Positions 8,840 through 63,524 of a stretch of 64,000 bases of DNA are shown here, one piece after another. Positions within the stretch are counted from its first letter, which is position 1; each line of letters starts with the position of its first letter. Position numbers and translations under genes: made by a program. This DNA is from Desulfobulbaceae bacterium BRH_c16a. Lineage in GTDB: Bacteria; Desulfobacterota; Desulfobulbia; Desulfobulbales; Desulfocapsaceae. The DNA lies in the NCBI GenBank assembly GCA_000961725.1, contig LADS01000045.1, positions 1 to 64,000 of the forward strand, read 5' to 3'. Below the pieces are notes generated by a model. It did no database searches. It was not told the DNA's origin and saw only the letters and a list, made by a program, of their open reading frames with translations.

Positions 8840-9715
8840 CTAATGAGCCATCTTAAGACCGTCGACGGCATTTCTGGCTATTGCCTGGCGACCTTGATAA
8901 TGTCTGAAGATATCTCTCGGGCATTTGGTCACGCAGGCGTTCTCGCAGCTTGGTCCGTAGGCGATACATGCCTTGTGATCGATTTTCACCACATTGTCTT
9001 CATACGCCACCGCACCTGCCGGACATGCCTTCACGCACATCTTACAGCCAATGCATCCCACCTGACAGACAGCCTTGACATTTTTGCCGAGATCTTTGGT
9101 CGAGCAGGGCACAAATACCCTTGCCTTGATGGTCTGGAGCTCGATAATTTTTTTCGGGCAGGTTCGTACACAGACGCCGCAGCTGACGCATTTATCGGGA
9201 TTGACAATGGGGAAATTTTCGACCATTTCGATGGCGTCAAATGGGCAGACAGCTGCGCACTCGCCCAAGCCGATACAGGCATACTGACAAGCGGAGGGGC
9301 CGCCGAAGCTGAGATTGGCAGCAGTGCATGAAGCAAATCCGTAATATTCATGCTTATGGCTGACCCTGCCTTCAACCCTTGAGCAGCGAACCACAGCCAG
9401 CTGGTCCTCGACAGAAGCCATCTTCTTGCCGGTCAATTCGGCAACTCGATTAGCGACCTTTTCTTTTCCTGGAAAACAGAGGTTGGGTGGAACATCGGGA
9501 TCGTTCACCACCGCGATAGCATATCCTTCACACCCCGGATAGCCACAGCCACCGCATTGAGCGAGCGGCAAAGACTCCACCACCTCTTCGATCAGAGGAT
9601 TGACCTCGACCGCAAATTTATGAGCGGCAAGAGCCAGACCGATACCAAAAAACAGGCCGATACAGCCAAGCAGAACCAAGCCGCCTAATGCTAATTTAAC
9701 TAATTCCGGATCCAT
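8840..9715 (-). CDS. rnfB: Rnf complex subunit RnfB (polyferredoxin)
   Basis: RnfB is the membrane-anchored iron-sulphur subunit that takes electrons from ferredoxin in the Rnf ferredoxin:NAD+ oxidoreductase. An N-terminal membrane helix (about 5-27) is followed by the CGGCGYPGCEGYA four-cysteine motif that binds a [4Fe-4S] cluster, then ferredoxin motifs CIGLGECAAVCP, CVSCGVCVRTCP, CIGCKMCVKACP and a C-terminal CxxxxxxCxxxCxxxCP-like set. With 291 residues it is longer than the E. coli form (about 190), like the polyferredoxin type of other Desulfobacterota. It is the last rnf gene of the operon, before apbE. Confidence 0.96.
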   Translation of the reverse strand: MDPELVKLALGGLVLLGCIGLFFGIGLALAAHKFAVEVNPLIEEVVESLPLAQCGGCGYPGCEGYAIAVVNDPDVPPNLCFPGKEKVANRVAELTGKKMASVEDQLAVVRCSRVEGRVSHKHEYYGFASCTAANLSFGGPSACQYACIGLGECAAVCPFDAIEMVENFPIVNPDKCVSCGVCVRTCPKKIIELQTIKARVFVPCSTKDLGKNVKAVCQVGCIGCKMCVKACPAGAVAYEDNVVKIDHKACIAYGPSCENACVTKCPRDIFRHYQGRQAIARNAVDGLKMAH

Positions 9716-9765
9716 ATCTATCTACTCTCAAACAAAATCTGGTTAATCTTCGTCAGTGGCGGGAC

Positions 9766-10707
9766 TTAGAAAATCTGTAAGCCCGAAAAGCCAAGAAACG
9801 CCATGGCAAATTGCCCGGCAACGATAAACGCAATCGGCAGCCCTTTGAAAGTAGGGGGAATATTTGCCAGCTGCATACGCTCGCTCACCGAACTCATGAG
9901 ATAGAGGGCGAGAAGGAAGCCCCCGCCGGCCCCAAGAGCCAGCATAAAAGTTTCAAAGACATTGTAGTTATTATTGGCAAGTATCAAAGGTACGGCAATG
10001 ATGACACAGTTGGCAATTACCAGCACCAGGTAGACCCCGAACGAATTGAAGAGTATGGGGTTGACCTTTCTCAGGACCGTGTCGACCGCCTGCACAGTCA
10101 GTGAAACAAGACCGATGAAAATGACGATCTGCAGAAAATTAAGGTCGAACGGAATCAAGATAAAGTTATAGAAAAACCAGCTCATCAGGGCCGACACAAC
10201 CATGACCACGGTAAAGACCACACCCATGCCTTTTGCCGTACTCTTTTTCTTGGCAGTGCCGAAAAACACGCACAGTCCAAGGTACTTGGTGAAAACAAAG
10301 TTATTGATAAGCAGTGCCGAGATCAATATGCTGAAGAGATAACCGAGATACGATTTACTCACCTTGACGATGGTCTTTTCTATTCCTGCCAGTCCCCTGA
10401 TGGTAACGACATGGGTGGCCGTGGTATTGAGGGTATCCTTAAAGGTCAGGGTGACACTTTTGCCATCTGCCGCAAGAACGGCGGAAGAGAGTGCGAGCCT
10501 GATGTCCGGATCCGGTTCTTCAACGACTGTGTAGTTGTCTATGTTCTCTGCGGTGTCTTTATCAACGGGTACCGAAAAGGTGACAACGATTTCTTTGTTC
10601 CCTTTGAAGCTCTGTTTGACAATCAACTCCTCTGCCAACGCCGACGAAGGTGTAAGCCAGAAGATCAATGCCGCCAATACGACATATATGGATTTTGCCG
10701 GAGTCAT
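9766..10707 (-). CDS. rnfA: RnfA with N-terminal secreted Ig-like domain
   Basis: Residues about 118-313 are a normal RnfA, a six-helix membrane subunit; they include the conserved FTKYLGLC cysteine and the IANC cysteine, which in solved Rnf/Nqr structures help hold a membrane [2Fe-2S] cluster. In front of it are a signal-peptide-like segment (1-25, ending SALAEE) and about 90 residues (26-115) resembling an SbsA-type bacterial Ig-like domain (VTFSVPVD, DGKSVTLTFKD, THVVTIRG). RnfA alone is about 190 residues, so this is a fusion. The start overlaps the rnfE stop by one base (TAATG), confirming that the extension is translated from the operon. Confidence 0.93.
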   Translation of the reverse strand: MTPAKSIYVVLAALIFWLTPSSALAEELIVKQSFKGNKEIVVTFSVPVDKDTAENIDNYTVVEEPDPDIRLALSSAVLAADGKSVTLTFKDTLNTTATHVVTIRGLAGIEKTIVKVSKSYLGYLFSILISALLINNFVFTKYLGLCVFFGTAKKKSTAKGMGVVFTVVMVVSALMSWFFYNFILIPFDLNFLQIVIFIGLVSLTVQAVDTVLRKVNPILFNSFGVYLVLVIANCVIIAVPLILANNNYNVFETFMLALGAGGGFLLALYLMSSVSERMQLANIPPTFKGLPIAFIVAGQFAMAFLGFSGLQIF

Positions 10708-11324
10708 TATAGTAACCCTTTTCTGCGTTTGTAATAGATTTCCACCCAGTTGAAAAAAGCCATCATCAAACCGACTACAAAAAAACCGGCGCTCGGCAAG
10801 ATGAAGAACAACAGGGGTTTGAAGCCCAGCACATCATAGCCGAGGATCGCTCCGGAACCAAGCAGCTCCCGGACAAATCCTATGACCATCATGCCAACCA
10901 TGAAACCGAGTCCCATGCCGAGACCATCCCAAAACGAGTCTTTGACCGGTTCTTTGCAGGCAAACATTTCAAGCCTCATGGTAATAATCGCAAAAGCCAC
11001 GATGAGCTTGACGAAAATCCCCATCTTTGCATACGCTTCCGGGAGATAGGCGGCAAGCACAAGATCGATTACCGTAACCCAGGTGGCGATAGTCAGGGTG
11101 TAGGTCGGGATGCGGATCCTCGGATGGATCAGGTCCTTGAATATTGAAATCGTCACACTCGAAAAGACCTGGACGAAAAGAACGGCTATCCCCAGCATGA
11201 GTCCATTCATGACTGTAGTAGATATACCCACGGCAGGGCACATGGAGAGCGCCAGCTTGAAAATCGGGTTTTCGCTCAGGATGCCTCTGCCGATCAGCTG
11301 CATGCTTGATTTATCATTTGACAC
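10707..11324 (-). CDS. rnfE: Rnf complex subunit RnfE
   Basis: RnfE is a six-helix membrane subunit paired with RnfA in inverted topology. The protein has 205 residues, a normal length. The first conserved cysteine is present (LALSMCPAVGIS). The second, in the segment that reads LIVVNCIVIGRAEAF in E. coli RsxE, is replaced: here it reads LIVAFAIITMRLEMF, with alanine (codon GCG) at the cysteine position. A different cysteine follows eleven residues later (MFACKEP). The start is GTG with AGAGGAAG upstream. The stop overlaps the rnfA start. Confidence 0.95.
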   Translation of the reverse strand: MSNDKSSMQLIGRGILSENPIFKLALSMCPAVGISTTVMNGLMLGIAVLFVQVFSSVTISIFKDLIHPRIRIPTYTLTIATWVTVIDLVLAAYLPEAYAKMGIFVKLIVAFAIITMRLEMFACKEPVKDSFWDGLGMGLGFMVGMMVIGFVRELLGSGAILGYDVLGFKPLLFFILPSAGFFVVGLMMAFFNWVEIYYKRRKGLL

Positions 11325-11345
11325 GTCGACTTCCTCTCACAAGAT

Positions 11346-12242
11346 TTAAAACGCTACAGCAAGCTGCTGCTCTTTCAGTACTTTATCCAAGGCAGCCACG
11401 CGATAGGCAAACTTCGTCACGATTCCTTTCACGCCATCCGCCACAGCTTTGGCCGAGATTGTGGCACCGGTAAGAGCATAGACATCCTTATCCTTGTATT
11501 GCTCGCGAAATTTCAAAATTTCATCCTCGGCTACCTTGCCGTTCAAGGCATCGAGGTAATCTGAGGGGATTGGTGCCTTTACGACATCGATTGCCTTAAG
11601 AGCTTCAAAGGGTTTGCCTTTGAGCTGATTTTTAAAATAATCCTGTTCTATTTCAGCCCCAAGACCGGGATCCTCTTCGTGTTCAAGAACTTCCATGCCG
11701 AGGATGGTGAAGGCCGGATCCAAGGCCAGCATAACGTGAATAAAGGTTTTAAAACCCTGGAACTTGCCGCCAATAAGGTAGGCGACACGTTTCCCGTCAT
11801 TAGTGACGACAACGGTCTGATCGGCAAACTTTACTGCATATCCAGGCCCGACAGCCTTTTCAACCAACTTGTTTCGCGTATCCGGTTCGAGTGCTTCCGC
11901 CTCACTGATTGCAACCGGATCGGCCGACAGCATCTCGCCGTTCAGGTCGATGTTCACCAGAAGAAAACCTTTTTCCTCACCATGTTTTGTCGGAACAAGA
12001 AAACCTATCGACTGCTTGTCGCTGCCCGATATCACATAGCGATACACCTCATGCAGGGCAACTGACTCCGGGGCTTTGACATTGCCTTTGTAGCCAAGCA
12101 GCTCGTACATTACCTGCTGCTCTTTGACGTGCTCATTATGTTTCTTGGCGTTACTGGTAAAAATAAAACAAATCCCCATCACCGTAGCAGCCATCAGGCA
12201 GGATACGGTAAGGCGAATCACTATGCTTAATATATTTTTCAT
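11346..12242 (-). CDS. rnfG: Rnf complex subunit RnfG (covalent FMN)
   Basis: RnfG is a periplasmic flavoprotein anchored by one N-terminal helix (about 5-27). It carries FMN bound covalently to a threonine in the motif YALTGATISAKAV near residue 258, the site modified by ApbE, whose gene lies downstream in the same direction. At 298 residues it is longer than the E. coli protein (about 206), with an extended central FMN-binding domain (VMLALDPAFTILGMEVLEHEEDPG region, named by its ends). Its ATG overlaps the rnfD stop by four bases, and rnfE begins 21 bases after its stop. Confidence 0.95.
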   Translation of the reverse strand: MKNILSIVIRLTVSCLMAATVMGICFIFTSNAKKHNEHVKEQQVMYELLGYKGNVKAPESVALHEVYRYVISGSDKQSIGFLVPTKHGEEKGFLLVNIDLNGEMLSADPVAISEAEALEPDTRNKLVEKAVGPGYAVKFADQTVVVTNDGKRVAYLIGGKFQGFKTFIHVMLALDPAFTILGMEVLEHEEDPGLGAEIEQDYFKNQLKGKPFEALKAIDVVKAPIPSDYLDALNGKVAEDEILKFREQYKDKDVYALTGATISAKAVADGVKGIVTKFAYRVAALDKVLKEQQLAVAF

Positions 12243-13294
12243 TTGGCACCTCCGATCGGCGGCGCGAAACGTTGCGGTTTAAACCAGCTGTCAAGTACTG
12301 TGCTGAGTGGATTCATCAGAAGGATTGCGTAGCAGATACCTTCCGGATAGCCGCCCTTCAGCCTGATAAGCACAGTCAGTCCGCCAATACCTATACCGAA
12401 AACGATTTTCGATACCTTGTTGGTCGGGCTGGTGACATAGTCTGTCGCCATGTAAAAGGCGCCGAGCAGCACGCCGCCGGAGAGAAGGCCGAGCAGCGGA
12501 TCGCCGCCGAAATATCCCTCACCTCCGAAAACCCAGGTCAAGACGGCAATTGTACCGAGAAGCGACACCGGGATATGCCAGGTGATATAGCCCCGATACA
12601 TCAGATACAAACCACCGAGAACCAGCAGGAAGCCCGAAGTCTCGCCGATACAGCCCGGCCGCCAGCCAAGAAAGAAGCTGCTGTAGAGACTTGCGCCGCT
12701 GCCGAAGGCCGCTGTGAAGGCAGCCATTCCCTGTTCTTTCATGACTGCCAGCGGGGTCGCCGTCGATACTGCATCAATCGAAGTGCCTAGGTAGGAAAAA
12801 ATGGCCATACCCTCAACAGGCGGCAGCCAGGCCGAAGTCATTGCCACCGGGAAGGACGCCAGAAGAAACGCCCGGCCGAGCAGAGCCGGATTGAAGAAAT
12901 TGTAGCCGATGCCGCCGAGGAGATGCTTGCCGATATAGATGGCAAAGACCGCAGCCAGGATCGGCAGGAGCGGGGAAACACCGGGCGGAATTATAAAGGC
13001 AATAAGCAGGCCGGTTAGCACCGCGCTGCCGTCCCTGATAGTCACCGGGCGGCCCAATGTTTTCTGGCTTATCGCTTCTACTGCCACACAACTGGCAACC
13101 GAAACCGCCGTGATGATGAGCGTTTGAATCCCGAAAATAAACACCGACAAAATCAGTGGTGGCACAAGACAGGCCACAACGGTCCACATAATTTTTTCGA
13201 CCGACTCATTGCTTTTCAGATGCGGCGATATGGATACCTTCCATCTCCCCACAGGTGAAACCGTTTGGTCGTCCGACTCTAGCTGTTTGCTCAC
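12239..13294 (-). CDS. rnfD: Rnf complex subunit RnfD (covalent FMN)
   Basis: RnfD is the largest membrane subunit, with about ten helices. The segment DAVSTATPLAVMKEQ contains the threonine expected to carry covalent FMN, the second ApbE target in the complex. I place the start at a GTG at 13294, preceded by AGGAG; the frame is open upstream to a TTG at 13339, but that would put the start inside a hairpin (13328-13347) and has no ribosome binding site. The end overlaps rnfG by four bases. Length is about 351 residues, normal for the family. Confidence 0.94.
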   Translation of the reverse strand: MSKQLESDDQTVSPVGRWKVSISPHLKSNESVEKIMWTVVACLVPPLILSVFIFGIQTLIITAVSVASCVAVEAISQKTLGRPVTIRDGSAVLTGLLIAFIIPPGVSPLLPILAAVFAIYIGKHLLGGIGYNFFNPALLGRAFLLASFPVAMTSAWLPPVEGMAIFSYLGTSIDAVSTATPLAVMKEQGMAAFTAAFGSGASLYSSFFLGWRPGCIGETSGFLLVLGGLYLMYRGYITWHIPVSLLGTIAVLTWVFGGEGYFGGDPLLGLLSGGVLLGAFYMATDYVTSPTNKVSKIVFGIGIGGLTVLIRLKGGYPEGICYAILLMNPLSTVLDSWFKPQRFAPPIGGAK

Positions 13295-13327
13295 GACTCT
13301 CCTCAAGACTTCTTGATTAAGACTAGT

Positions 13328-13347
13328 GCCCTGCTGCAATGCAGGGC
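13328..13347 (-). other. Intercistronic hairpin between rnfC and rnfD
   Basis: GCCCTGC and GCAGGGC form a perfect 7-bp stem with a 6-base loop in the 85-base gap between rnfC and the proposed rnfD start. There is no T tract, so it may be a message-stability or processing element rather than a terminator. Confidence 0.45.
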
Positions 13348-13379
13348 GAACCCTTGTTGATATTGTTCCGGTATCTCTG

Positions 13380-14705
13380 TTACTGCGGTCGCTTCGCCTT
13401 CATCTTGGCCAGTCGCACAAATTGAACAAGAGGGCGTTTGGCCGGGCATACATACGCACAGGAGCCACACTCAAAGCATTCGAATATGCCGAACTGGGCG
13501 GTATCCTCCGCTCTGTTAGCCTCGACATGAATAGCGATCTCTTTCGGCTCCAGGCCCATGGGGCAGGCCTCCAGGCACCACCCGCAACGGATACATTGGG
13601 AATGCGGTCTGGTATCGATCTCATCCTCGGTAAGGAAAAGAACGGCGGATGTGGTCTTGGTTACCGGCACGTCAAGGCTGGATACGGCAAAGCCCATCAT
13701 CGGCCCGCCAAGGATGATCTTGGCAAGTCCCGGCTTCAGTCCGCCCAGATATTCGACTATATCCTTCAGTTTCGTGCCGATCTTAACCTGCAGATTAGCG
13801 GCCCGGCCTATGCCATTACCGGCGACGGTAATTACTTTTTCATACAGCGGCTTACCGTACACCACCGCATCATGGATAGCCTTTGCCGTAGAAACATTCT
13901 GCACCACAACTCCCACTGCGGACGGCAGCGCCATTGCCGGCACTTTGCGCCCGGTCACGGCCTGGATGAGCTGCTTCTCGGATCCTTGCGGATATTTGAC
14001 CTGCAGGGCTTCAACCTTGATTATACAGTCTGGCCCCGATGCCATTTCTGCGGCTTTCTTCATCTCGCGAATCGCATCGGGTTTGTTGTTTTCAATACCT
14101 ATGTGACATTGGCTGATGCCAAGGATCTTCAGAATGATTTTTGCCCCTTCCACGACCTCCGCCGCAGATTCAAGCATCACCCGGTGATCGGCGGTGATAT
14201 AGGGCTCACATTCGGCCCCATTGAGGATCAGGGTATCAACCGGCGAGTCGGACGGCGGCTTCAATTTCACATGGGTCGGAAATCCGGCGCCACCAATACC
14301 GATGACGCCTGCATCGTGCACTTTTGCGAGCAGCTCGGAGCTGTCCAACTGCTGCCAGGACTGTTTTTCATAGTGAACAGGCGGAGCCTCGCGATCGACT
14401 GAAATGGTAATGGATGGAGCACTCACCCGAATCGGGTGGACAGAGACCCCGATATCTTTTACTTTGCCGGCGACAGGGGCATGAAGAGGAACGCCAAGCC
14501 CTTTCTTCACTTCTCCGACCAATCCGCCTTCGCCCACCTCCGCACGCTTGGCAACGGTCGGGGAACATGGGGCTCCGATATGCTGGCCGAGAATGAGTTC
14601 CAGTTCATCGGGTACAGGCATTATTTCTATAGCCAAGCCCTGCGATTGGGCCTTACATTCGGGCGGATGAGCACCACCTTTGGGAAATGTCAGCAACGAT
14701 TTCAT
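13380..14705 (-). CDS. rnfC: Rnf complex subunit RnfC (NADH/FMN and Fe-S)
   Basis: RnfC is the cytoplasmic subunit that exchanges electrons with NAD(H). The N-terminal barrel-like region (HAPVAGKV) is followed by the flavin/NAD segment GIGGAGFPTHVKL near residue 155, an SLBB-like domain, and two [4Fe-4S] motifs, CIRCGWCLEACP and CFECGSCAYVCP, near the C-terminus. The 441-residue length is that of the compact type without the alanine-rich tail seen in E. coli RsxC. It is the first gene of the rnfCDGEAB operon; the promoter must lie in the 66 bases up to the DHODH-like gene or further upstream. Confidence 0.96.
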   Translation of the reverse strand: MKSLLTFPKGGAHPPECKAQSQGLAIEIMPVPDELELILGQHIGAPCSPTVAKRAEVGEGGLVGEVKKGLGVPLHAPVAGKVKDIGVSVHPIRVSAPSITISVDREAPPVHYEKQSWQQLDSSELLAKVHDAGVIGIGGAGFPTHVKLKPPSDSPVDTLILNGAECEPYITADHRVMLESAAEVVEGAKIILKILGISQCHIGIENNKPDAIREMKKAAEMASGPDCIIKVEALQVKYPQGSEKQLIQAVTGRKVPAMALPSAVGVVVQNVSTAKAIHDAVVYGKPLYEKVITVAGNGIGRAANLQVKIGTKLKDIVEYLGGLKPGLAKIILGGPMMGFAVSSLDVPVTKTTSAVLFLTEDEIDTRPHSQCIRCGWCLEACPMGLEPKEIAIHVEANRAEDTAQFGIFECFECGSCAYVCPAKRPLVQFVRLAKMKAKRPQ

Positions 14706-14771: not shown

Positions 14772-15776
14772 TCAGGACAATCCGCCATAATATTTCATAA
14801 ACTGGGTGCGTTCAAACACCGCAGGGTTCTTTGCCTTCTCGTAGCTCAGACTGCCTCTGAACTCGGCCAGGCTGGAAAAAGATTTCCGCGTCATCCATTC
14901 ATCGAGTCCCTTGAGAATGACAGAAATCTGTCCCGGGCCGTTTTTGTACACGGTCGATACAATTTGCGCTGCGGTGGCACCGGCGAGAATCTGTTTGATA
15001 AGGCCTTCGCTGTCGTGAATCCCGGTCGAGGCGACCAGATCCTTGTCAATAAGACCGGACATCAGGGCGATCCAACGCAAGGGGCCGCAACCTTCAACAG
15101 GATTGCTCAAAATATCGGCCGACTTGACGACCATTTTCTCAATGTCTATGTCCGGAGTATAGTACCGGTTGAACAGGACAAAACCTGAAATCTTATTGGT
15201 CATGCTCAGTTTCAGGATAAGACCGGCCAGTGAGGCGGAGTAGCGGCTCATCTTCAGGGTGATGGGAATGGAAATCATGCCGCTGACAATATTGATGATT
15301 TCCAGGTATTTCTTCTCGTTCTCTTCGCTGCTCATTTTAGGATTGGAGGGCAGCAGCGAGATATTCAGCTCGATGGCATCCGCCCCTTCCTGCTCGACCG
15401 ATTTAGCAAAAGATATCCATTCGGTTGCCGACACACAGTTTATGCTGGCAATCACCGGAATATCAACTGCTTTTTTGGCTCCGGAAATGAGCTTCAGATA
15501 CTTTTCAACTTCGTTGCCGCGGGTGTATTCGCGGATATAATCCATCGCCTCGGGATAATCGGCGGTATAGCTCTCGAGATTCGAAGATAATTCCGCCTGA
15601 ATCTGCTCTTCAAAGAGAGACTTCAGAACAACGGCGGCGGCATTATGGTCAGCCAGCTGCTTTATTTTGTCAACACTGTTGGTAAACCCGCAACTGCCGA
15701 CAATCAACGGATTTTTGAGATCGAGCCCCAGGTATTTTGTCGAAAGATCATTCATATCGTCTGATGTGTTCTCCAT
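14772..15776 (-). CDS. Dihydroorotate dehydrogenase-like FMN protein
   Basis: This TIM-barrel flavoprotein resembles class 1 dihydroorotate dehydrogenases (STKYLGLDLKNPLIVGSCG at the N-terminus, GADAIELNIS near the middle). The usual catalytic cysteine/serine loop is not obvious, and proteins of this group are generally annotated only as DHODH-like, so a role in pyrimidine synthesis is not assured. No pyr genes are nearby. It lies 66 bases upstream of rnfC on the same strand. Start choice is uncertain: ATGs at 15776 and 15755 are both possible and neither has a strong ribosome binding site; the frame is open to 15809. Confidence 0.8.
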   Translation of the reverse strand: MENTSDDMNDLSTKYLGLDLKNPLIVGSCGFTNSVDKIKQLADHNAAAVVLKSLFEEQIQAELSSNLESYTADYPEAMDYIREYTRGNEVEKYLKLISGAKKAVDIPVIASINCVSATEWISFAKSVEQEGADAIELNISLLPSNPKMSSEENEKKYLEIINIVSGMISIPITLKMSRYSASLAGLILKLSMTNKISGFVLFNRYYTPDIDIEKMVVKSADILSNPVEGCGPLRWIALMSGLIDKDLVASTGIHDSEGLIKQILAGATAAQIVSTVYKNGPGQISVILKGLDEWMTRKSFSSLAEFRGSLSYEKAKNPAVFERTQFMKYYGGLS

Positions 15777-16273
15777 CCAAATATATTTGCCTGGCCTGGC
15801 GCCGAGCACCCTACCGCCGCCTTAGGCAAGTTCTTGTGCAAATTATGCTCAAGCAACATCGAACAACAGTCGCTTTCCCAAATATTCGAACAGGTACAAA
15901 TACAAAATATTCACAGAAATTCAACTATATTTTCGATAGTTACCGTGCTATATCACCTAATCAATTGTTATTAATATTTATAATTTTTATTTATGAATGC
16001 AAAAAGGTTTAATTTTAGACCATACGACAGTTCAACCTGTTGTGCAACGATGCGGTCCAAAACTCTATCTCTCGGAATGTCCCATGAAAATTCGCCTATA
16101 ATAGCCGACCAGCTGGGTCTTGTGAAGGATGAATCGTCGGCAGATCCCTGGAGTGCCGACGGCAAATTATCCGTGTGCGGAAATCCAGGAAGTCTTATAT
16201 AGTCGGAACGACATCTCATCCCACCTCCTTTTTCTTATAATAAAGAACTCCCGGAATCTGCAAAGGGTCTCTC
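15777..16273. other. Intergenic region with AT-rich promoter zone
   Basis: This is a roughly 500-base divergent intergenic stretch. Bases 15880-16000 are very AT-rich and probably hold the promoter of the DHODH-like gene (-). Short open frames in both directions (15993-16202 on +, 15971-16219 on -) show no recognisable family and no ribosome binding site. Nothing else was identified. Confidence 0.4.
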
Positions 16274-55470: not shown

Positions 55471-55573
55471 TCTCGCCATCGCAAACACCAGCCTAAAAGA
55501 ATTCTCACATTCTCCAACGGTATTTTGAGGTGAAATCTTGTGTTCTCCTCGTCGGATGCTATAATCGTCGACA

Positions 55574-55938
55574 GCACAAGTTGCACTTAACTGCCCGAGC
55601 ATACAGGCACTTCACTCCCTCATGCCTGCACATTCATTTGTGGTTTTTTACTGTGCCCGCACCACACAGGAAGTAATCGACCGCAAACGATTGTGCGTAC
55701 TGTGCGTACATAAGTCTTAATACGCGAAGTTTTAGATCGGATTGTGCAATTCCCGTAGATTACACTTGCGCTAGTACCACAGAGGTGTTATTTTTTGACA
55801 CTTTTTCACCGGAGAGGTACTGTTTGCACAATTATTTTGTGCTCTTCCCACAAACATTGACGCACATTTTGCACAATGGCAATAAAAACCTTTCTACGAC
55901 CGCTTCTGAGCTTTATTGCGCTGCAACTTCTGCACAAT
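55574..55938. repeat. Array of seven GCACAA/TTGTGC motifs
   Basis: GCACAA occurs at 55574, 55826, 55871 and 55932, and its complement TTGTGC at 55691, 55741 and 55837. Several extend to TTGCACAAT or ATTGTGCAAT. The copies at 55826 and 55837 form a perfect inverted repeat with a 5-base gap. Random expectation for a given hexamer on both strands in 365 bases is below one. They may be binding sites for a hydrogenase regulator. Confidence 0.6.
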
Positions 55939-56133
55939 ACTTTCTCCTTTTTTTCCTTAAAGGTCGGACCAACATACCAATCAAGCAGAACCAATCCGTC
56001 CCCTGCACGCCACTCTCAAATCAAGAATGTCGGTGTTTGCACTTTACCGAAACCAGCAGTCTGCCAATCGCCTTCCCTCCTCCTGTCCTCCATCAGGGAC
56101 TCGGCAAGAGAGTTGTTAGTATCTCGAATTTCC

Positions 56134-56149
56134 AAAGCCGGCCGGCTTT
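56134..56149 (+). terminator. Terminator-like hairpin in the hydrogenase leader
   Basis: AAAGCC-GGCC-GGCTTT is a perfect palindrome followed by ATTTTT, a compact Rho-independent terminator form. It lies about 100 bases upstream of the hydrogenase small-subunit start and could end a leader transcript or attenuate the operon. Confidence 0.55.
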
Positions 56150-56251
56150 ATTTTTCATATGTATCGTTTTTCAGTTCAATTCTTCGGCGCTTTTGGTCGA
56201 AGCAACGCGCAAGGGCGCACATTTGTTGTCACACAGCAATAGGAGGTTGAT

Positions 56252-57322
56252 ATGGCAGACACAGTAAACAAAGCTCTGGACCCGCAGCTTGATCGGCGCG
56301 GATTCCTCAAGGGATGCACAATGGCTGCAGCCGCTTTAGGACTGTCCGAGGCGATGATCCCCAAACTCGTCGAGGCTGCCGCAACGGCAGAGCGACCGAG
56401 AGTTATCTGGCTACATTTCCAGGAATGCACAGGCTGCACAGAGAGTTTGCTGCGCTCATCGCATCCGGACCTGGCCCGCTTGCTCCTCGATATTATCTCG
56501 CTCGATTACCATGAGACGGTCATGGCCGCAGCAGGGCATCAGGCAGAACACAATCTTCATGAGACGGTTAACAATCATCCCTTCATCCTGGTTGTGGAAG
56601 GTGCAATCCCCACCAAGGATGGAGGAATCTATTGTAAAATCGCCGGCAAAACCGCCATGGATATTCTCGCCGAAGTTGCCCCCAAGGCTTCTGCGATCAT
56701 CGCCATCGGAACCTGCGCCACCTTTGGCGGCGTCCAGGCTGCGGCCCCCAACCCGACAGGTGCAGTCGGTGTTCAGGACCTGGTAAGCGGCAAACCGATT
56801 ATCAACATTCCTGGCTGTCCGCCAAATCCGATTTCCTTCCTTGGAACCATTCTCCACTATCTGACCTTCAACAGGCTGCCCGCACTTGATCATCTCAACC
56901 GTCCGCTCTTTGCATACGGCCGCAGAATTCATGACCATTGCGAGCGTCGCGCCCATTTTGACGAGGGTCGTTTTGTCGAGAATTTCGGCGACCAGTTCCA
57001 TAAACTCGGCTACTGTCTCTACAAAGTCGGCTGCAAAGGCCCCGAAACCTTCTCCAACTGTCCGGCAGTTCGCTTTAACGATGTCGATGTCTGGCCGGTC
57101 AGTGTCGGTCATGGCTGTGTAGGTTGTACAGAACCGAATTTCTGGGACACCATGACGCCATTTTACGAAAGACTGCCAATGGTAAAAATTCCCGCCAGTG
57201 GAATCGTCGAAAGTGCGGATCAGGTTGGTAAAACCATTCTTGGTGTAACTGCGGCTGCAGTCGGTATCCATGCCGCAGTGGGAATCGGCAAACGACTGAT
57301 CAAAGGCAAGGAAAAGGAGTAG
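56252..57322 (+). CDS. hyaA: [NiFe] hydrogenase small subunit, Tat-exported
   Basis: This periplasmic electron-transfer subunit of a group 1 uptake hydrogenase has a Tat signal (DRRGFLKGC, residues 14-22). The proximal cluster motif is CTGCTE at 59-64, with the standard glycine rather than the extra cysteine of oxygen-tolerant enzymes. Distal and medial cluster ligands follow (HDHCERRAHF, GYCLYKVGC, and CPAVRF...GCVGCTE, ends quoted). A C-terminal helix (about 327-348) with a basic tail anchors it to the membrane. The ribosome binding site is AGGAGG. It is the first gene of the hydrogenase operon. Confidence 0.96.
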   Translation: MADTVNKALDPQLDRRGFLKGCTMAAAALGLSEAMIPKLVEAAATAERPRVIWLHFQECTGCTESLLRSSHPDLARLLLDIISLDYHETVMAAAGHQAEHNLHETVNNHPFILVVEGAIPTKDGGIYCKIAGKTAMDILAEVAPKASAIIAIGTCATFGGVQAAAPNPTGAVGVQDLVSGKPIINIPGCPPNPISFLGTILHYLTFNRLPALDHLNRPLFAYGRRIHDHCERRAHFDEGRFVENFGDQFHKLGYCLYKVGCKGPETFSNCPAVRFNDVDVWPVSVGHGCVGCTEPNFWDTMTPFYERLPMVKIPASGIVESADQVGKTILGVTAAAVGIHAAVGIGKRLIKGKEKE

Positions 57323-57441
57323 CAAAAGCTATTTCCCCCTTTGTCTGCATGATACATTAGCGATAGGAAAAATCTTTTACCGGCGCCTGGAAAACAAAGC
57401 ATTCTCCAGTATCTGGTAGTTACTATTTGGAGGTTTCACAC

Positions 57442-59142
57442 ATGGCTCAGCGAATCACCATTGATCCGGTTACCCGGATCGAAGGTCACCTAAGAGTAGA
57501 TATCGAAGTAGACGGAGGCCTGGTCACCAAGGCATGGTCCTCCGGCCAGATGTACCGTGGTCTTGAGAACATTCTGAAAGGTCGCGATCCCCGCGATGCG
57601 TGGCTATTTGTTCAGCGCATCTGCGGTGTCTGCACCACGGTTCATGGTCTTGCTTCCGTCCGTGCCGTTGAAAACGCGCTCGGCCTTGAGATTCCCCTCA
57701 ATGCCCAGCTCATCCGCAACATGGTCCAGTCGATCCATTGTCTGCATGACCATATCGTCCATTTTTATGCCCTGTCGGCCCTTGACTGGGTGGATGTGGT
57801 TTCCGCGCTCGACGCCGACCCGGTCGCCACCGCCAAGCTTGCCGACAGTCTTTCCGACTGGCCCGGCAACAGCCCAAAACGTTTTGCCGCAGTAAAAGAC
57901 AAGCTGAAGGCCTTGGTTGCAAGCGGTCAGCTCGGTCCTTTCGCCAATGCCTATTGGGGCCACTCGGCGATGAAACTGCCGCCTGAGGCGAACCTGATGG
58001 CGGTTTCCCATTACCTGGAAGCACTCGACTATCAGCGTAAAGCCACTCAGGCTCTGGCCATCATCGGCGGCAAGAACCCCCACATCCAGAACCTCACCGT
58101 GGGCGGCGTCACCACCAATCTGAATCCCGAGAATCAAACCGCAGTGACCATGGAGCGTCTCTACTTCATCAAGCAGCTCGTTGAGGAAGTCAGCTCCTTC
58201 ATCAAGATGGTCTATATGACCGATGTCGTTGCCGTCGGCGCCCTCTATGCCGAATGGCTGCCCTACGGCGCAGGCGTAACCAACTACCTTGCTGCCCCGG
58301 ACATGTTCCTCGATGCCGCTGCAACCAAGGCCGATCTTCCCGGCGGAACCGTATTTGGCGGCGATCTGAAAACCATCAAGAAGATCGACATCCATGCCGA
58401 TCCGTATTTCAAGGAGAACGTTCAGGAATCCATCGCCAAGGCCTGGTATGACGGCGACTGGTCCAAACACCCATGGGAATCGTCAACCGAGCCGAAATTC
58501 ACCGACTTCGAGGATGAGGGCCGTTACACCTGGCTGAAGGCTCCGCGTTTCCAAGGCAAACCGATGCAGGTCGGGCCACTGGCCCAGATGGTCGTCGGCT
58601 ATGCCCAGGGGCATGAGATGACAGTTAAAAACGTCGATGCCTTCCTGGCTCGCATAAGCGCCGTCGCCGGAGTCACAGTCGGTCCGGAGATTCTCCACAG
58701 CACCATCGGTCGTCACGCCGCCCGTGCTGTCCGCGCCGGCATGATGGCAGACCTCTGCCTCAAGCATTGGAATCTGCTGGTCAACAATGTCGCCTCAGGC
58801 GATTATGAAATTTTCAGACCATGGTCGTATCCCAAAGGTGAACAGCGAGGCGTCGGCGTCCATGAAGCACCGCGCGGTCTGCTCTCCCACTGGATCGTCA
58901 TCGAGGACGGCAAAATCAAGAACTACCAGTGTGTTGTTCCTTCCACCTGGAATGCCGGCCCTCGGGATGCAGAAGGTCAGCTCGGACCCTACGAAGCTTC
59001 TCTTATGGGCAATCCTATTGCTGATCCGGAAAAACCTCTCGAGGTTCTTCGGACTATACATTCTTTCGACCCATGTATTGCCTGTGCCGTCCATATGCTC
59101 GATCCGGAAGGGAAGGAAGTAGTGAAAGTGAAAGCTCTGTAA
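57442..59142 (+). CDS. hyaB: [NiFe] hydrogenase large subunit
   Basis: This subunit holds the nickel-iron site that splits hydrogen. The L1 motif is RICGVCTTVHGLASV and the L2 motif is DPCIACAVH near the C-terminus, supplying the four cysteines. The 15 residues after that His (MLDPEGKEVVKVKAL) form the peptide removed by a maturation protease. No such protease gene (hyaD-type) is in the window. The ATG at 57442 follows GGAGG; a TTG at 57427 lies in the ribosome binding site and is not the start. It has no signal and is exported with the small subunit. Confidence 0.96.
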   Translation: MAQRITIDPVTRIEGHLRVDIEVDGGLVTKAWSSGQMYRGLENILKGRDPRDAWLFVQRICGVCTTVHGLASVRAVENALGLEIPLNAQLIRNMVQSIHCLHDHIVHFYALSALDWVDVVSALDADPVATAKLADSLSDWPGNSPKRFAAVKDKLKALVASGQLGPFANAYWGHSAMKLPPEANLMAVSHYLEALDYQRKATQALAIIGGKNPHIQNLTVGGVTTNLNPENQTAVTMERLYFIKQLVEEVSSFIKMVYMTDVVAVGALYAEWLPYGAGVTNYLAAPDMFLDAAATKADLPGGTVFGGDLKTIKKIDIHADPYFKENVQESIAKAWYDGDWSKHPWESSTEPKFTDFEDEGRYTWLKAPRFQGKPMQVGPLAQMVVGYAQGHEMTVKNVDAFLARISAVAGVTVGPEILHSTIGRHAARAVRAGMMADLCLKHWNLLVNNVASGDYEIFRPWSYPKGEQRGVGVHEAPRGLLSHWIVIEDGKIKNYQCVVPSTWNAGPRDAEGQLGPYEASLMGNPIADPEKPLEVLRTIHSFDPCIACAVHMLDPEGKEVVKVKAL

Positions 59143-59202: not shown

Positions 59203-59847
59203 ATGGCAACATACGAGAAACATCATTGCTGGAGTTTACTGCTCCGGCTGTTCCACTGGATGTTTGCTCTGTCTATCGTGTTTCTGGTAGTTACAGGGTT
59301 CTACATCAACAATCCATGGACTAACTCCATGGTGGAAGGAAGTGCCAGCTTCCCCATGGCGATTATGCGCTACATGCATTTTATTGCAGCGTACACCTTT
59401 TCAGCGGCTGTCGCGATCAGGCTGTTCCTCTATATTTTCGGCAATGCCCAGGAAAGAGTCTGGGATATCCTGCCGATTTCCAAGAGGAATCTCAACAACC
59501 TGAAAATGACTTTGCTGCAGTACAGCTACATCAGCGATGAGCACGACGAGCGTCTCGGTCACAATATTCTGGCCGGTCTCTCCTATTTGTTCACCTTTAT
59601 CGTTGCTGTAGTCATGGTCCTGAGCGGTTTCTTCATGCTCTACCCGGAAGCGTCTTTCTGGCAGGGCTGGGGAGTTATGCTGTTTGGCAGTCAACAATTC
59701 GCCCGTTACCTCCATCACATTCTCATGTGGTGGTTTATGATCTTTGCTGTCATCCACCTCTATCTCTGTATCTGGAATGACGTGAAGGAACCCGAGGGAC
59801 TCATTTCCTCTATCTTTACCGGTGCGAAGTTCAAACACAAAGCATAG
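59203..59847 (+). CDS. cybH: Hydrogenase cytochrome b subunit
   Basis: This 214-residue di-haem membrane cytochrome passes electrons from the hydrogenase small subunit to quinone. Four membrane helices are predicted, with the family's haem histidines (RLFHWMFAL, YMHFIAAYTF, RYLHHILMWWFMIF and VIHLYLCIW). The start has GGAGG. It lies 60 bases after the large subunit gene. The end overlaps the proposed start of hypF by 26 bases. Confidence 0.93.
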   Translation: MATYEKHHCWSLLLRLFHWMFALSIVFLVVTGFYINNPWTNSMVEGSASFPMAIMRYMHFIAAYTFSAAVAIRLFLYIFGNAQERVWDILPISKRNLNNLKMTLLQYSYISDEHDERLGHNILAGLSYLFTFIVAVVMVLSGFFMLYPEASFWQGWGVMLFGSQQFARYLHHILMWWFMIFAVIHLYLCIWNDVKEPEGLISSIFTGAKFKHKA

Positions 59848-62203
59848 GCAGCAAAAGGTCGAAATTCTTGTCCGGGGTACTGTCCAGGGCGTAGGATTTC
59901 GACCCTTTATCTACAACTTAGCCTCTCGTTTCGGGATTTGCGGCACGGTGACCAATACCGGAGACGGAGTGGTCATCAAAGCCACGGCCGAGCACGAGAG
60001 GCTCTGTTTTTTCATCGGCGCCATAACAAAAGAGGCCCCGCCTCTCGCCAAAATCACCTCTGTCGAAAGTCATCCGCTTGACACCCCAATAGCCGAACAA
60101 AGCTTTTTCATCCTGCCAAGTGTCACCGGCAATTCAGCAAATACTGCGATACCGCCGGATATAGCGCTCTGCGACGACTGCCTGCGCGAGCTTCTCGATC
60201 CAAAGGATGACCGATTCCACTACCCGTTCATCAACTGCACCAATTGCGGCCCGCGTTTCACCATCGTTGAAACTATCCCTTATGATCGACCCAAGACTTC
60301 GATGAAGGTCTTTCCGATGTGTGACCGCTGTGAAGGGGAGTATTACGACCCCGGCAACCGAAGGTTTCACGCCCAGCCCAATGCCTGCCCTCGCTGTGGT
60401 CCGGGAATCACCCTCCATACTCAGACGGGTGAACCTGTTCCCGCTACCGATCCTGTCGCTGCGGCTGTTTCTCTGCTTGCAGATGACAGGGTCCTGGCAA
60501 TGAGAGGCCTGGGCGGTTTTCATCTGGTCGTCAACGGTTGCTCGGAAAAAGCTGTCGGCCTGCTCCGCCAAAGAAAAGGTCGACCGGATAAGCCGCTGGC
60601 TATTATGGCCCGAGACCTCCTTGCAGCAAGTGCATTCTGTATCGTAAATGACGCAGAGAAAAAACTCCTTACTTCGCCGGAACGTCCGATAGTTCTGCTG
60701 CGCAAAAAAAGTGACTGCGGCCTTGCCGCCAATCTTGCGCCAGGCATTGATGAAATCGGCGTAATGCTGCCCTATACGCCTTTGCACCATCTGCTTTTCC
60801 AGATGAAAGATTGCCCGCAGGTTCTGGTCATGACCTCCGGCAACATCAGCGGCTCGCCAATCTGCACCGCCAATGACGACGCTCTTGCGCGACTTGGGGC
60901 AATAGCCGACTTTTTCCTGCTGCACAACCGGGAGATCGTCACTCGGGTGGACGACTCCGTCGTGAGAGTGGTCGGCGACCACCATCCATTGCTTCTGCGA
61001 CGAGCCAGGGGTTTTGTTCCCGCACCGGTCATGATCGACCGGCAATTGCCGAAGATCCTCGGCTGCGGCGCGGGGTTGAAAAGCACCTTCAGTCTCGGCA
61101 GGGACCGGAGTGTCTTCACCAGTCAGCATATCGGCGATCTCGACAGCCTGCCGACCTATGATTTCTACCTTGAATCGATCGATCACCTCAAAAGCGTCCT
61201 GCAACTGGAACCGGAAGCGGTCGCCTGCGACCTTCATCCCGATTACCTGAGCAGCCGTTTTGCCGCAGAACTGGGGCTGCCGCTGTACAAGGTGCAGCAT
61301 CATCATGCCCATGCGGTCGCCGTCATGGCCGAGCACCGTCTTGACGGGCCTGTTCTTGCGGTGATCCTTGACGGAACCGGCCTCGGCGAGGACGGCACCA
61401 TATGGGGTGGGGAAATTTTGCTCGCGGACCTTACCGGCTTCAAACGTCTGGGCCATCTCAGCCATCTGCTTCTGCCCGGCGGTGACGCCGCCAACACCGA
61501 GCCCTGGCGAATGGGTTTATCCGCTCTCTACCAGACCTTCGGCCCTGCCGGCCTTGTTGCAGAAAGGCTGCCGCCGGCTCTTGCACAATTGGATCAAGCG
61601 ACAGTTGACACCATTTCTTCGATGATGGTCAATGGATTTCATTCTCCACTCACCTCCAGCTGCGGCAGATTATTTGATGCAGTGGCCTCTCTTCTTGGCC
61701 TGCGGCAGAAAATAAGTTACGAGGGGCAGGCTGCCATGGAGTTGGAAACACTCGCCAAAAGGGCCCACACTTCATCGTGGCTTGCGCAACTCTCGCCCAA
61801 AGCGCACAAAGACATCTCCCCCTTTCTCATTGAAGTGAAAGGAAAATGGGAGATTAGTTCACCGGAATTTGTTAAAATGGTTTACGACGGAATGACTAAG
61901 GCTGAGCCGGCATCGGTTATCGCTCTGCGCTTCCATTCCCTCCTTATCGGCAGTATTACAAGACTTATCGAAATTCTCGCTCATCAGACAGGTATAAAAC
62001 ACGTTGTGCTTTCCGGCGGCTGCATGCAGAACAGCTTACTGCTGGAGGGTCTCTTTCATACTCTGAATACAGTTCACCTGCAGGCTTTTACAGGAAACAT
62101 GCTCCCGGTCAATGACGGAGCGGTTTCTTTCGGTCAGACAATAATAGGAGGTTTACGACATGTGTCTCGCAATTCCCATGAGGGTAACCAGCGTCCAGGG
62201 TGA
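59822..62203 (+). CDS. hypF: Carbamoyltransferase HypF
   Basis: HypF makes thiocarboxamide on HypE, the source of cyanide ligands for the hydrogenase iron. Domains in order: acylphosphatase (about 12-100, GTVQGVGFRPFIYNLA), zinc fingers (CDDCLRELLDP, CTNCGPRF, CDRCEGEYYDP, CPRCGP), YrdC-like domain (about 210-390), and Kae1-like domain with VQHHHAHAVAVMAEH and DGTGLGEDGTIWGGE. At 793 residues it is slightly longer than E. coli HypF. The start is a GTG at 59822, the only start codon upstream of the acylphosphatase motif. It ends 44 bases inside hypC. Confidence 0.95.
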   Translation: MRSSNTKHRQQKVEILVRGTVQGVGFRPFIYNLASRFGICGTVTNTGDGVVIKATAEHERLCFFIGAITKEAPPLAKITSVESHPLDTPIAEQSFFILPSVTGNSANTAIPPDIALCDDCLRELLDPKDDRFHYPFINCTNCGPRFTIVETIPYDRPKTSMKVFPMCDRCEGEYYDPGNRRFHAQPNACPRCGPGITLHTQTGEPVPATDPVAAAVSLLADDRVLAMRGLGGFHLVVNGCSEKAVGLLRQRKGRPDKPLAIMARDLLAASAFCIVNDAEKKLLTSPERPIVLLRKKSDCGLAANLAPGIDEIGVMLPYTPLHHLLFQMKDCPQVLVMTSGNISGSPICTANDDALARLGAIADFFLLHNREIVTRVDDSVVRVVGDHHPLLLRRARGFVPAPVMIDRQLPKILGCGAGLKSTFSLGRDRSVFTSQHIGDLDSLPTYDFYLESIDHLKSVLQLEPEAVACDLHPDYLSSRFAAELGLPLYKVQHHHAHAVAVMAEHRLDGPVLAVILDGTGLGEDGTIWGGEILLADLTGFKRLGHLSHLLLPGGDAANTEPWRMGLSALYQTFGPAGLVAERLPPALAQLDQATVDTISSMMVNGFHSPLTSSCGRLFDAVASLLGLRQKISYEGQAAMELETLAKRAHTSSWLAQLSPKAHKDISPFLIEVKGKWEISSPEFVKMVYDGMTKAEPASVIALRFHSLLIGSITRLIEILAHQTGIKHVVLSGGCMQNSLLLEGLFHTLNTVHLQAFTGNMLPVNDGAVSFGQTIIGGLRHVSRNSHEGNQRPG

Positions 62204-62426
62204 CCCGGACGATTTCACCACCCACCAGATAGCCACAGTCGATGCCGACGGAATCAGCAAGGAGGTTCGTCTTGAGATAGTCGACCACTGGCCTTCAGTC
62301 GGCGATTATGTGATCATCCATGCCGGATTCGCCATCCATTCCCTGGTAGAGGAAGAAGCTCTGAAAAATATTGCACTCCTGCGGGAACTGGCCGAGAATA
62401 TGCCGGAAGAACTTCTCTGCCGATAG
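62160..62426 (+). CDS. hypC: Hydrogenase maturation chaperone HypC
   Basis: This 88-residue chaperone binds the large-subunit precursor and HypD, carrying the iron with its ligands. The N-terminal MCLAIP, with the essential Cys2, and the GDYVIIHAGFAIHSL segment are diagnostic. The start has AGGAGG at proper spacing, within the 3' end of hypF (44-base overlap in another frame). hypD follows 9 bases after the stop. Confidence 0.96.
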   Translation: MCLAIPMRVTSVQGDPDDFTTHQIATVDADGISKEVRLEIVDHWPSVGDYVIIHAGFAIHSLVEEEALKNIALLRELAENMPEELLCR

Positions 62427-62435
62427 GTGCCAGCC

Positions 62436-63524
62436 ATGAAATATCTTGATGAATACCGAGACATAAGTCTGGCCAAACCGCTGGTCGAGGAGTTGAAAAA
62501 GGCGGTCACCAAGCCGCTGCGGGTTATGGAGGTGTGCGGCTCCCATACCATGGCCGTGTTCCGCAACGGCTTGCGGACTATCCTGCCGCCAGGTCTTGAG
62601 CTCGTCTCCGGCCCCGGTTGCCCGGTCTGTGTCACTTCCGCTTCGCATATGGACGCCTTTATCGGCATGGCCGATCGTCCCGGCGTTCGCGTCGCCATTT
62701 TCGGCGATCTTTTTCGCGTCCCCGGCACCCGCGGCTCTCTTGCCGAAGCAAGTTCCCGAGGCGCAAAAGTCGATATCGTCTACTCGCCGATGGATGCTTT
62801 GGACCTTGCCGTAAAAAATCCGCATGAACTGGTCGTCTTTCTTGGCGTCGGTTTTGAAACCACCACTCCCGGTATTGCCGCGACCATCCTCACCGCGCAC
62901 AACACCAACGTCAAAAATTTTGCCGTGTTTTCAACCCAGAAAGTCATGCCTGCTCCCATGGAGGCACTGCTCAGCGATCCCGCCCTGAAGATTGACGGCC
63001 TGCTCTGTCCCGGCCACGTTTCCTCGATTATCGGCGCGGGAGCCTGGGAACCTCTGGTAAGAAAATACAACCTTGCCTGCGTGGTCAGTGGTTTTGAAAC
63101 CGCCGATCTCTTGAAAAGTCTCATCCTTCTCGCCCGCCAGGTGGGCAATAATGACAGGAAGGTGGAGAATGTCTATCCCCGTGCCGTCTCGTGGGAGGGC
63201 AATCTGCGTGCGGCGAAGATGGTTGCCGAGATTTTCGAACCGGCCGATATGGACTGGCGCGGCCTTGGCCGGATTCCTTTAAGCGGCTTGAAGATCCGAA
63301 ATAAATATGCCGACTTCGATGCCGAGGTCCGGCTTGAGATTACGCTTCCCGAAGCGAAGGAACCCAAAGGCTGCTTGTGCGGCAACATCCTCAAAGGCAT
63401 GAACACTCCGCGGGAATGTGTGCTTTTCGATACCCGCTGCTCTCCCGCCAATCCGATCGGGCCGTGCATGGTCTCGAGCGAAGGTACCTGCTCCGCATAT
63501 CATAAATACGGTCGGGATGAGTAG
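62436..63524 (+). CDS. hypD: Hydrogenase maturation factor HypD
   Basis: HypD is a [4Fe-4S] protein that, with HypC, assembles the Fe(CN)2CO unit. The family segments MEVCGSHTMAVFR, SGPGCPVCVTS, GFETTTPG, CPGHVSSIIG and the C-terminal cysteine set (CLCGNILKG, C..L.D and TRCSPANPIGPCMVSSEGTC, split here) are present. The 362-residue length is normal. ATG at 62436 is chosen; a GTG at 62427 would add three residues. hypE begins 211 bases later, after the inverted-repeat element. Confidence 0.96.
   Translation: MKYLDEYRDISLAKPLVEELKKAVTKPLRVMEVCGSHTMAVFRNGLRTILPPGLELVSGPGCPVCVTSASHMDAFIGMADRPGVRVAIFGDLFRVPGTRGSLAEASSRGAKVDIVYSPMDALDLAVKNPHELVVFLGVGFETTTPGIAATILTAHNTNVKNFAVFSTQKVMPAPMEALLSDPALKIDGLLCPGHVSSIIGAGAWEPLVRKYNLACVVSGFETADLLKSLILLARQVGNNDRKVENVYPRAVSWEGNLRAAKMVAEIFEPADMDWRGLGRIPLSGLKIRNKYADFDAEVRLEITLPEAKEPKGCLCGNILKGMNTPRECVLFDTRCSPANPIGPCMVSSEGTCSAYHKYGRDE

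Follow-up and report, generated by a model that had tools for sequence, protein, structure and literature searches.

The hydrogenase locus

The window analysed here is a stretch of 64,000 nucleotides, positions 1 to 64,000 of contig LADS01000045.1 of Desulfobulbaceae bacterium BRH_c16a. It carries an uptake hydrogenase operon (hyn) on the forward strand, preceded by a gap of about 780 bp that runs from the end of the upstream open reading frame (ORF) at 55470 to the hydrogenase start at 56252. The operon and its leader contain the following features.

56252..57322, + strand: [NiFe] hydrogenase small subunit with a twin-arginine signal (TIGR00391; Pfam Oxidored_q6 and NiFe_hyd_SSU_C)
57427..59142, + strand: [NiFe] hydrogenase large subunit (Pfam NiFeSe_Hases; the best NCBIfam model, hydrogenase 2 large subunit, is below cut-off)
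59203..59847, + strand: hydrogenase b-type cytochrome subunit (TIGR02125)
59822..63524, + strand: hypF, hypC and hypD (TIGR00143, TIGR00074, TIGR00075)
56134..56155, + strand: terminator-like hairpin in the hyn leader (AAAGCCGGCCGGCTTT followed by a T-rich tail), distinct from the array described below

Within the leader (56134-56251) the terminator-like hairpin is conserved and is followed, just before the ribosome-binding site, by a TTCGGC hairpin in which some two-sided changes preserve pairing; attenuation or a leader structure is possible.

The hexamer array and chance

The original prediction was of an array of GCACAA/TTGTGC hexamers, far above chance in density, filling the gene-free region in front of hyn and bound by a regulator of hydrogen metabolism. 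Seven exact copies are indeed present, at 55574, 55691, 55742, 55826, 55837, 55871 and 55932 (the last ending at 55937). Three of them (55741, 55824 and 55869, with their flanks) extend to TTGCACAAT or its complement, and the 55826/55837 pair forms a perfect 6-bp inverted repeat, GCACAA-N5-TTGTGC, both as had been described. The upstream alignment shows that this inverted pair is not kept in relatives. The region is free of any convincing gene from 55470 to 56252; the strong sites do not simply fill it but are placed around a promoter.

The claim of a density far above chance holds for this hexamer only. In 40 dinucleotide-preserving shuffles of the window the densest 365 bases held at most three copies of GCACAA/TTGTGC, against seven in the real sequence. 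Some hexamer, however, reached at least seven per 365 bases in 13 of the 40 shuffles, and in the real window CCGGCA likewise reaches seven in its densest 365 bases. The hexamer was chosen post hoc and others match its density so often that density by itself is merely suggestive. Overall enrichment is not clear either (42 copies in the window, with 33.3 expected); it is the clustering that is striking. We therefore rest the case for the array on conservation and on motif scans.

Conservation had been named as a test, and the array is kept upstream of the orthologous hydrogenase within the genus, which we infer to be Desulforhopalus, in the family Desulfocapsaceae. A genome-wide count found WTTGTGCAAW 45 times in the own genome (three of these within the array), compared with 14 for the reversed pattern. 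A similar density in unrelated intergenic regions would have spoken against the prediction, and is rare: the best three clusters in 1.18 Mb of a relative left out of matrix training, G006, are those at hyn, rnf and nuo.

Sites and promoter at hyn

The sequences upstream of hyn were aligned for the own genome together with 13 relatives. A 22-bp matrix was trained on 29 promoters (hyn, nuo and rnf) from the genus plus the sister genome G028, with G006 excluded. The alignment and the matrix give the following picture of the gap.

55574..55588, - strand: outlying weak copy, two half-sites 9 bp apart (GCACAAGTTGCACTT); matrix score 11.9; unconserved in the alignment
55688..55709, + strand: putative upstream operator, 9-bp direct repeat TTGTGCGTACTGTGC; matrix score 21.9 (in the training set); conserved block
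55741..55750, no strand assigned: lone half-site ATTGTGCAAT, found in the sequence
55766..55794, + strand: sigma70-like promoter TTGCGC-N17-TATTTT with an extended -10 (consensus CTTG...GTGkTAnTTT), from the alignment
55813..55834, - strand: downstream half-site TTTGCACAA in a weak direct repeat; matrix score 14.2; TTTGCACAA is conserved
55858..55879, - strand: putative downstream operator, 9-bp direct repeat GCACATTTTGCACAA; matrix score 24.0 (in the training set); best site in the window
55919..55940, - strand: outlying weak site with the GCACAA at 55932; matrix score 13.5; unconserved

The promoter emerged from the alignment; a strict scan for the sigma70 consensus found none. The pattern derived from the alignment, whose consensus spans window positions 55765-55794, is matched in 13/13 hyn promoters; the transcription start is inferred to lie near 55801. 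As to a possible -24/-12 promoter of the kind served by sigma54 activators such as HoxA/HupR, the conserved promoter is sigma70-like, and sigma54 was assessed only by eye.

Two blocks of repeats are conserved in the alignment. The upstream block is a direct repeat, TTGTGC-N3-yTGTGC, at window positions 55690-55705; the downstream one, GACGCAC-N4-TTGCACAATGG at 55860-55880, is a 9-bp direct repeat in the opposite orientation. One strong repeat thus stands on either side of the conserved promoter, the two in opposed orientations; relative to the inferred start they lie some 100 bp upstream and some 65 bp downstream. The conserved unit is TTGTGC-N3-TTGTGC with a 9-bp period, in some cases with three units, and three-unit sites are present in family f3. 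Spacing between TGTGC cores on the same strand was 9 bp in 33 pairs from 32 genus-level promoters; in 34 promoters from other families it was 9 bp in 38 pairs, with 18 bp next (7 pairs). The bound unit, if the array is indeed bound, is most likely the 9-bp direct repeat rather than an inverted repeat.

A further model, R1, is sequence-only and was built in part from the very sites at issue; its scan scored no more than 150 candidates in each genome. It lists seven own-genome sites, and among these matches the 55858 site scores highest, the 55688 site third and a nuo site sixth; the second lies inside a coding region.

Motif matches at other operons

Putative sites also precede nuoA and the rnf operon, whose first gene is dihydroorotate dehydrogenase-like. 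The latter operon lies within the window.

8840..14705, - strand: rnfC, D, G, E, A and B (NCBIfam rnf models and ORFs)
14775..15755, - strand: dihydroorotate dehydrogenase-like gene, first of the rnf operon (NF005741; Pfam DHO_dh)
15831..15852, no strand assigned: putative operator upstream of rnf; matrix score 17.4 (in the training set); orthologous promoters in relatives

rnfC, D, E and B pass their curated cut-offs, while rnfG and rnfA match below theirs.

In the scan of G006 (1.18 Mb, left out of training) the top three clusters scored 26.2 (hyn), 19.6 (rnf) and 14.4 (nuo), and the best score in one order-4 Markov control sequence was 7.6. These loci are orthologues of training loci, so the scan tests conservation and specificity and is not a discovery. 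Simple patterns gave a consistent result within the genus: TTGTGC-N3-TTGTGC had 15 matches in 9/15 genomes and a gapped cluster pattern gave 31 rows in 11/15, the reversed control being 0 for each. By position, 24 of the gapped rows fall at hyn or nuo promoters (one, G001:C298, assigned by resemblance) and 7 elsewhere.

Single tandem sites were considered as a specific marker and rejected, several of the 15 TTGTGC-N3-TTGTGC matches falling within ORFs. GCACA-N4-GCACA proved likewise unspecific, with most of the 30 loci inspected lying within ORFs.

Several further matches are recorded here as observations. Within the window, three half-sites and a direct repeat occupy 2752-2978, with a chemoreceptor-like gene on one side and an ABC ATPase gene on the other. 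A strong match lies near the 3′ end of rnfC (window 13411 and locus L338) and is also found in G012; coding constraint or an internal site is possible. Another match falls within the hypF region (window 61791), and G006 has a strong counterpart (G006:C1:202612) at a corresponding distance from hyn. Elsewhere, two genomes of the genus, G008 and G009, have strong sites in front of formate-tetrahydrofolate ligase (L335, L337). A strong single site with an unidentified target gene occurs at G000:C49:94489 (score 21.6) and G000:C71:23326; the two contigs have hits in common and resemble assembly duplicates.

The idea of an array serving a regulator of hydrogen metabolism is thus supported, but the regulon appears wider than the hydrogenase. 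Sequence comparison supports its spanning hyn, nuo, rnf and the mvh-hdr operon introduced below; neither binding nor expression data are at hand.

A candidate regulator

The MerR-like protein BldC of Streptomyces binds 9-bp direct repeats, and we therefore screened proteins with the HTH_17 domain for motif-bearing promoters. The screen was confined to that domain: 36 matches in 5 genomes, of which 30 loci were fetched and scored upstream. Only one HTH_17 family had the motif upstream, and it did so in 5/5 genomes screened; for the rest of the 30 loci, upstream scores did not exceed 12.0. We call this family HTH-HdrCB.

HTH-HdrCB has 483 residues; its helix-turn-helix is N-terminal, and 4Fe-4S and CCG domains come after it. 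The helix-turn-helix matches Pfam HTH_17 at 32.0 bits (cut-off 27), with MerR and MerR_1 below cut-off. Fer4_8 and CCG are above their Pfam cut-offs, and HdrC structures are matched. None of the curated NCBIfam equivalog models HmcF, TmcB, DsrK and HdrC reached its cut-off, and a PDB profile search with the helix-turn-helix gave only weak matches to HTH proteins (best 0.0021), with no BldC chain at E<=1. Across 29 sequences the residues of the recognition helix are invariant except in one column. The own-genome frame runs into a TGA at one position, and 25 of the 29 members tabulated have TGA at that place, read as a selenocysteine codon; a simple string search found TCG, TCA, TGC and TGT there in the other four.

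In the own genome HTH-HdrCB stands second in the mvh-hdr operon, after a hydrogenase maturation protease gene, and is followed by HdrA-like and VhuG-like genes; in G006 a VhuA-like gene comes after these. The HdrA, VhuG and VhuA matches are below curated cut-offs, and MvhD was assigned by eye. An alignment of 11 mvh-hdr promoters shows a core that resembles the hyn core and a downstream repeat that reaches the probable start codon of the operon's first gene.

The mvh-hdr promoter was outside the matrix training set. HTH-HdrCB was found, at E<=1e-70, in 93/257 genomes of the class, in four families, and the upstream regions of all 93 genomes (95 gene copies) were scored. Partial fragments of the gene (e.g. 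G140:C73, G174:C120 and G244:C180) were left unscored. A site of at least 12.5 was found upstream of 92/95 copies in 91/93 genomes (29/29, 61/63 and 2/3 in the three subsets), and one of at least 16 upstream of 84/95 (27/29, 55/63 and 2/3). Markov controls reached these thresholds in 21/390 and 3/390 cases, respectively. Close paralogues were counted apart; that of G005 has no site and that of G003 only one of 15.3.

Position relative to the gene varies. The site usually lies about 525 bp upstream, compared with 67-212 bp in six f12 copies (G111, the second G112 copy, G113, G115, G116 and G117). Three copies fail to reach 12.5: that of G140, with just 226 bases of contig in front of it; that of G179 (L424); and, in G173, the second of two. 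G179 has TQTVIKNWIS as its recognition helix in place of HRNTIRNWIN and lacks the canonical repeat; no replacement 9-bp repeat was found near the promoter upstream of its HTH-HdrCB gene. G179 is possibly a natural change of specificity. The first G112 copy, with smaller helix changes (RRNTIRDWIR), still has a site of 18.6.

A second matrix was built anew from 54 sites in the HTH-HdrCB promoters of the other families. It is not fully independent, because its sites were picked with the first matrix. In the window it ranks the hyn site at 55858 first, the site at 2957 second, the rnf site at 15831 third (score 18.9) and the hyn site at 55688 fourth.

From these sequence relations alone, and without binding data, we consider that the factor acting at the array is probably HTH-HdrCB, which joins a winged helix-turn-helix of MerR/BldC-like type to an iron-sulfur protein of the HdrCB kind.

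Co-occurrence of sites and gene

At nuo, sites were present in 14/14 genomes with HTH-HdrCB and in 0/3 without it (G007, G010 and G016; Fisher p 0.0015, relatedness ignored). Nine of the 14 positive genomes were in the training set, and the remaining five were all positive (5/5). This test covers the 17 closest NuoB loci; more distant NuoB matches, from a search of 33 genomes, were unscored.

At hyn the association is not significant. Sites were found in 16/25 genomes with HTH-HdrCB and 1/4 without (p 0.28), so that 9/25 genomes bearing the gene have no hyn site. The hyn locus of G001, with only 86 bases upstream, was left unscored.

The main result against HTH-HdrCB as the factor is G007, which has a strong, full hyn array and in which the HTH-HdrCB gene was undetected. 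Its assembly comprises roughly 640 contigs, with completeness near 93%. Contamination was considered as the cause of this exception and is unsupported; none is evident, because the only close PcnB of G007 sits on the same contig.

Alternative explanations

One alternative is that a small energy regulon does have its operator in the array, but that the factor is unidentified, such as some other short helix-turn-helix protein or a response regulator, with HTH-HdrCB merely one of the targets. The exception in G007 speaks for this. The screen of motif-bearing promoters leaves room for such a factor, being limited to HTH_17 proteins (30 loci of 36 matches, 5 genomes), and direct repeats are also bound by response regulators, according to the available part of PMC5859096. 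We nevertheless judge this unlikely, though well worth keeping in mind. The motif tracks the HTH-HdrCB gene through four families, even where it has come to lie nearer to the gene; its 9-bp period fits a MerR-like mode; the altered recognition helix of G179 coincides with loss of the motif, albeit as a single event; and no other HTH_17 protein among the loci scored had an upstream site above 12.0.

An established global redox or hydrogenase regulator (Rex, a CRP/FNR protein such as HcpR, or a sigma54 activator of the HoxA/HupR type) seems very improbable as the protein that binds the repeats. The TTGTG half-site together with nuo and hydrogenase targets is reminiscent of Rex, and GCACAA-N5-TTGTGC in the window appears palindromic. 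Rex and CRP/FNR operators are inverted repeats, however, and what is conserved here is a direct repeat, the inverted pair being unconserved; the objection rests on the form of the operator alone. The conserved hyn promoter is sigma70-like, which weighs against the sigma54 reading only as far as inspection by eye allows.

Action at the RNA level, through a long hyn leader with terminator and hairpins in which the hexamers are incidental, could appeal to the terminator-like hairpin and the TTCGGC hairpin, both of them conserved, close to where the hydrogenase begins. As a replacement for an operator we give it slighter credence still. The repeats flank the promoter in both orientations and occur at four unrelated operons, and the leader between array and hairpin is poorly conserved. 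An Rfam search up to E 5 found no match in the array and a single weak one, to U7 (E 3.9), outside it at 55260-55313. RNA-level control of the leader may be an additional layer.

That the cluster is chance or composition, for which the shuffles with an equally dense hexamer might be cited, can practically be set aside, as conservation already refutes it and the scan of the left-out G006 and the motif upstream of HTH-HdrCB in other families also stand against it.

Proposed mechanism

We return to HTH-HdrCB as the probable factor. The array would then be the operator of an autoregulated transcription factor governing hyn, mvh-hdr, nuo and rnf, with HTH-HdrCB protomers inferred to bind head-to-tail on the repeats. 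The placing of repeats before and after the start in opposite orientation suggests repression by blocking, and makes looping possible. At hyn the downstream copy (about +57 to +78) would block transcription, as would the one at mvh-hdr that touches the probable start codon of the first gene, and a loop between downstream and upstream copies might aid repression. Some genomes also show opposed strong copies flanking the promoter at rnf and at mvh-hdr. When HTH-HdrCB binds may be set by the redox state of its Fe-S/selenocysteine module or by its assembly with HdrA. The repressive sign and the sensed signal are both inferred, without expression data, and we are less confident of them than of the identity of the factor.

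A broader proposal is that HTH-HdrCB is at once the Fe-S, mostly selenocysteine-bearing, heterodisulfide-reductase-like subunit of an Mvh-Hdr electron-bifurcating complex and a DNA-binding factor. It would directly read the redox or assembly state of the complex and set expression of its own operon as well as of hyn, Rnf and complex I, and so act as a trigger enzyme for energy conservation from hydrogen in sulfate reducers of the Desulfobulbales type. Its enzymatic role and its binding are both inferred, and we offer the proposal tentatively, as one about which we remain slightly more doubtful than convinced. We know of no regulator that balances periplasmic hydrogen uptake, bifurcation, Rnf and complex I in such organisms. 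If the candidate is right, one protein ties the state of the bifurcating complex to transcription of competing electron routes. It would, moreover, be a MerR-like factor whose sensor domain is an Fe-S/selenoprotein, and the additional helix-turn-helix, on an iron-sulfur protein of otherwise ordinary appearance, would have a role. The question is now directly testable, because a candidate regulator, a putative operator and four proposed target operons have been named.

Comparison with known systems

PutA-type trigger enzymes join an enzyme and a DNA-binding domain in a single chain that governs its own operon. HTH-HdrCB, whose enzymatic role is inferred, differs from them in the types of domain. 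In Geobacter, the repressor HgtR links growth on hydrogen with energy genes. In the open-licence literature, as far as titles and the openings of abstracts reveal, neither an Hdr protein fused to a helix-turn-helix nor the GCACAA/TTGTGC motif was found.

In its DNA reading the candidate is closest to BldC, which the available part of PMC5859096 describes as binding 9-bp direct repeats as head-to-tail multimers. The likeness lies in a MerR/HTH_17-type domain and in 9-bp direct repeats in variable number, binding at the candidate's repeats being inferred. The core sequences differ, TGTGC for HTH-HdrCB and AATT for BldC. BldC has 68 residues and no further domains, whereas HTH-HdrCB carries about 400 extra residues of HdrCB-type Fe-S protein. 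With 483 residues, Fer4 and CCG, it does not share the BldC-family trait of being short and without dimerisation or effector domains.

In the rest of the chain it resembles HdrCB proteins of the HdrD/HmcF/TmcB type, having Fer4 and CCG domains, a selenocysteine codon (25/29) and hdrA- and vhu/mvh-like neighbours. Selenocysteine-containing Hdr proteins have been described from the genome of Desulfobacterium autotrophicum (PMC2702500, available in part). HTH-HdrCB differs in its added N-terminal helix-turn-helix; the available part of PMC2702500 mentions no DNA-binding domain on Hdr. HdrR of Methanosarcina barkeri, an archaeal activator of hdrBCA, is likewise a helix-turn-helix regulator of an hdr operon, but no Hdr fusion is described for it in the available part of PMC11218639. 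An autoregulating factor with MerR-like DNA reading is of a known kind, and what would be new, on the inferences made here, is the unusual sensor or enzyme domain and the regulon.
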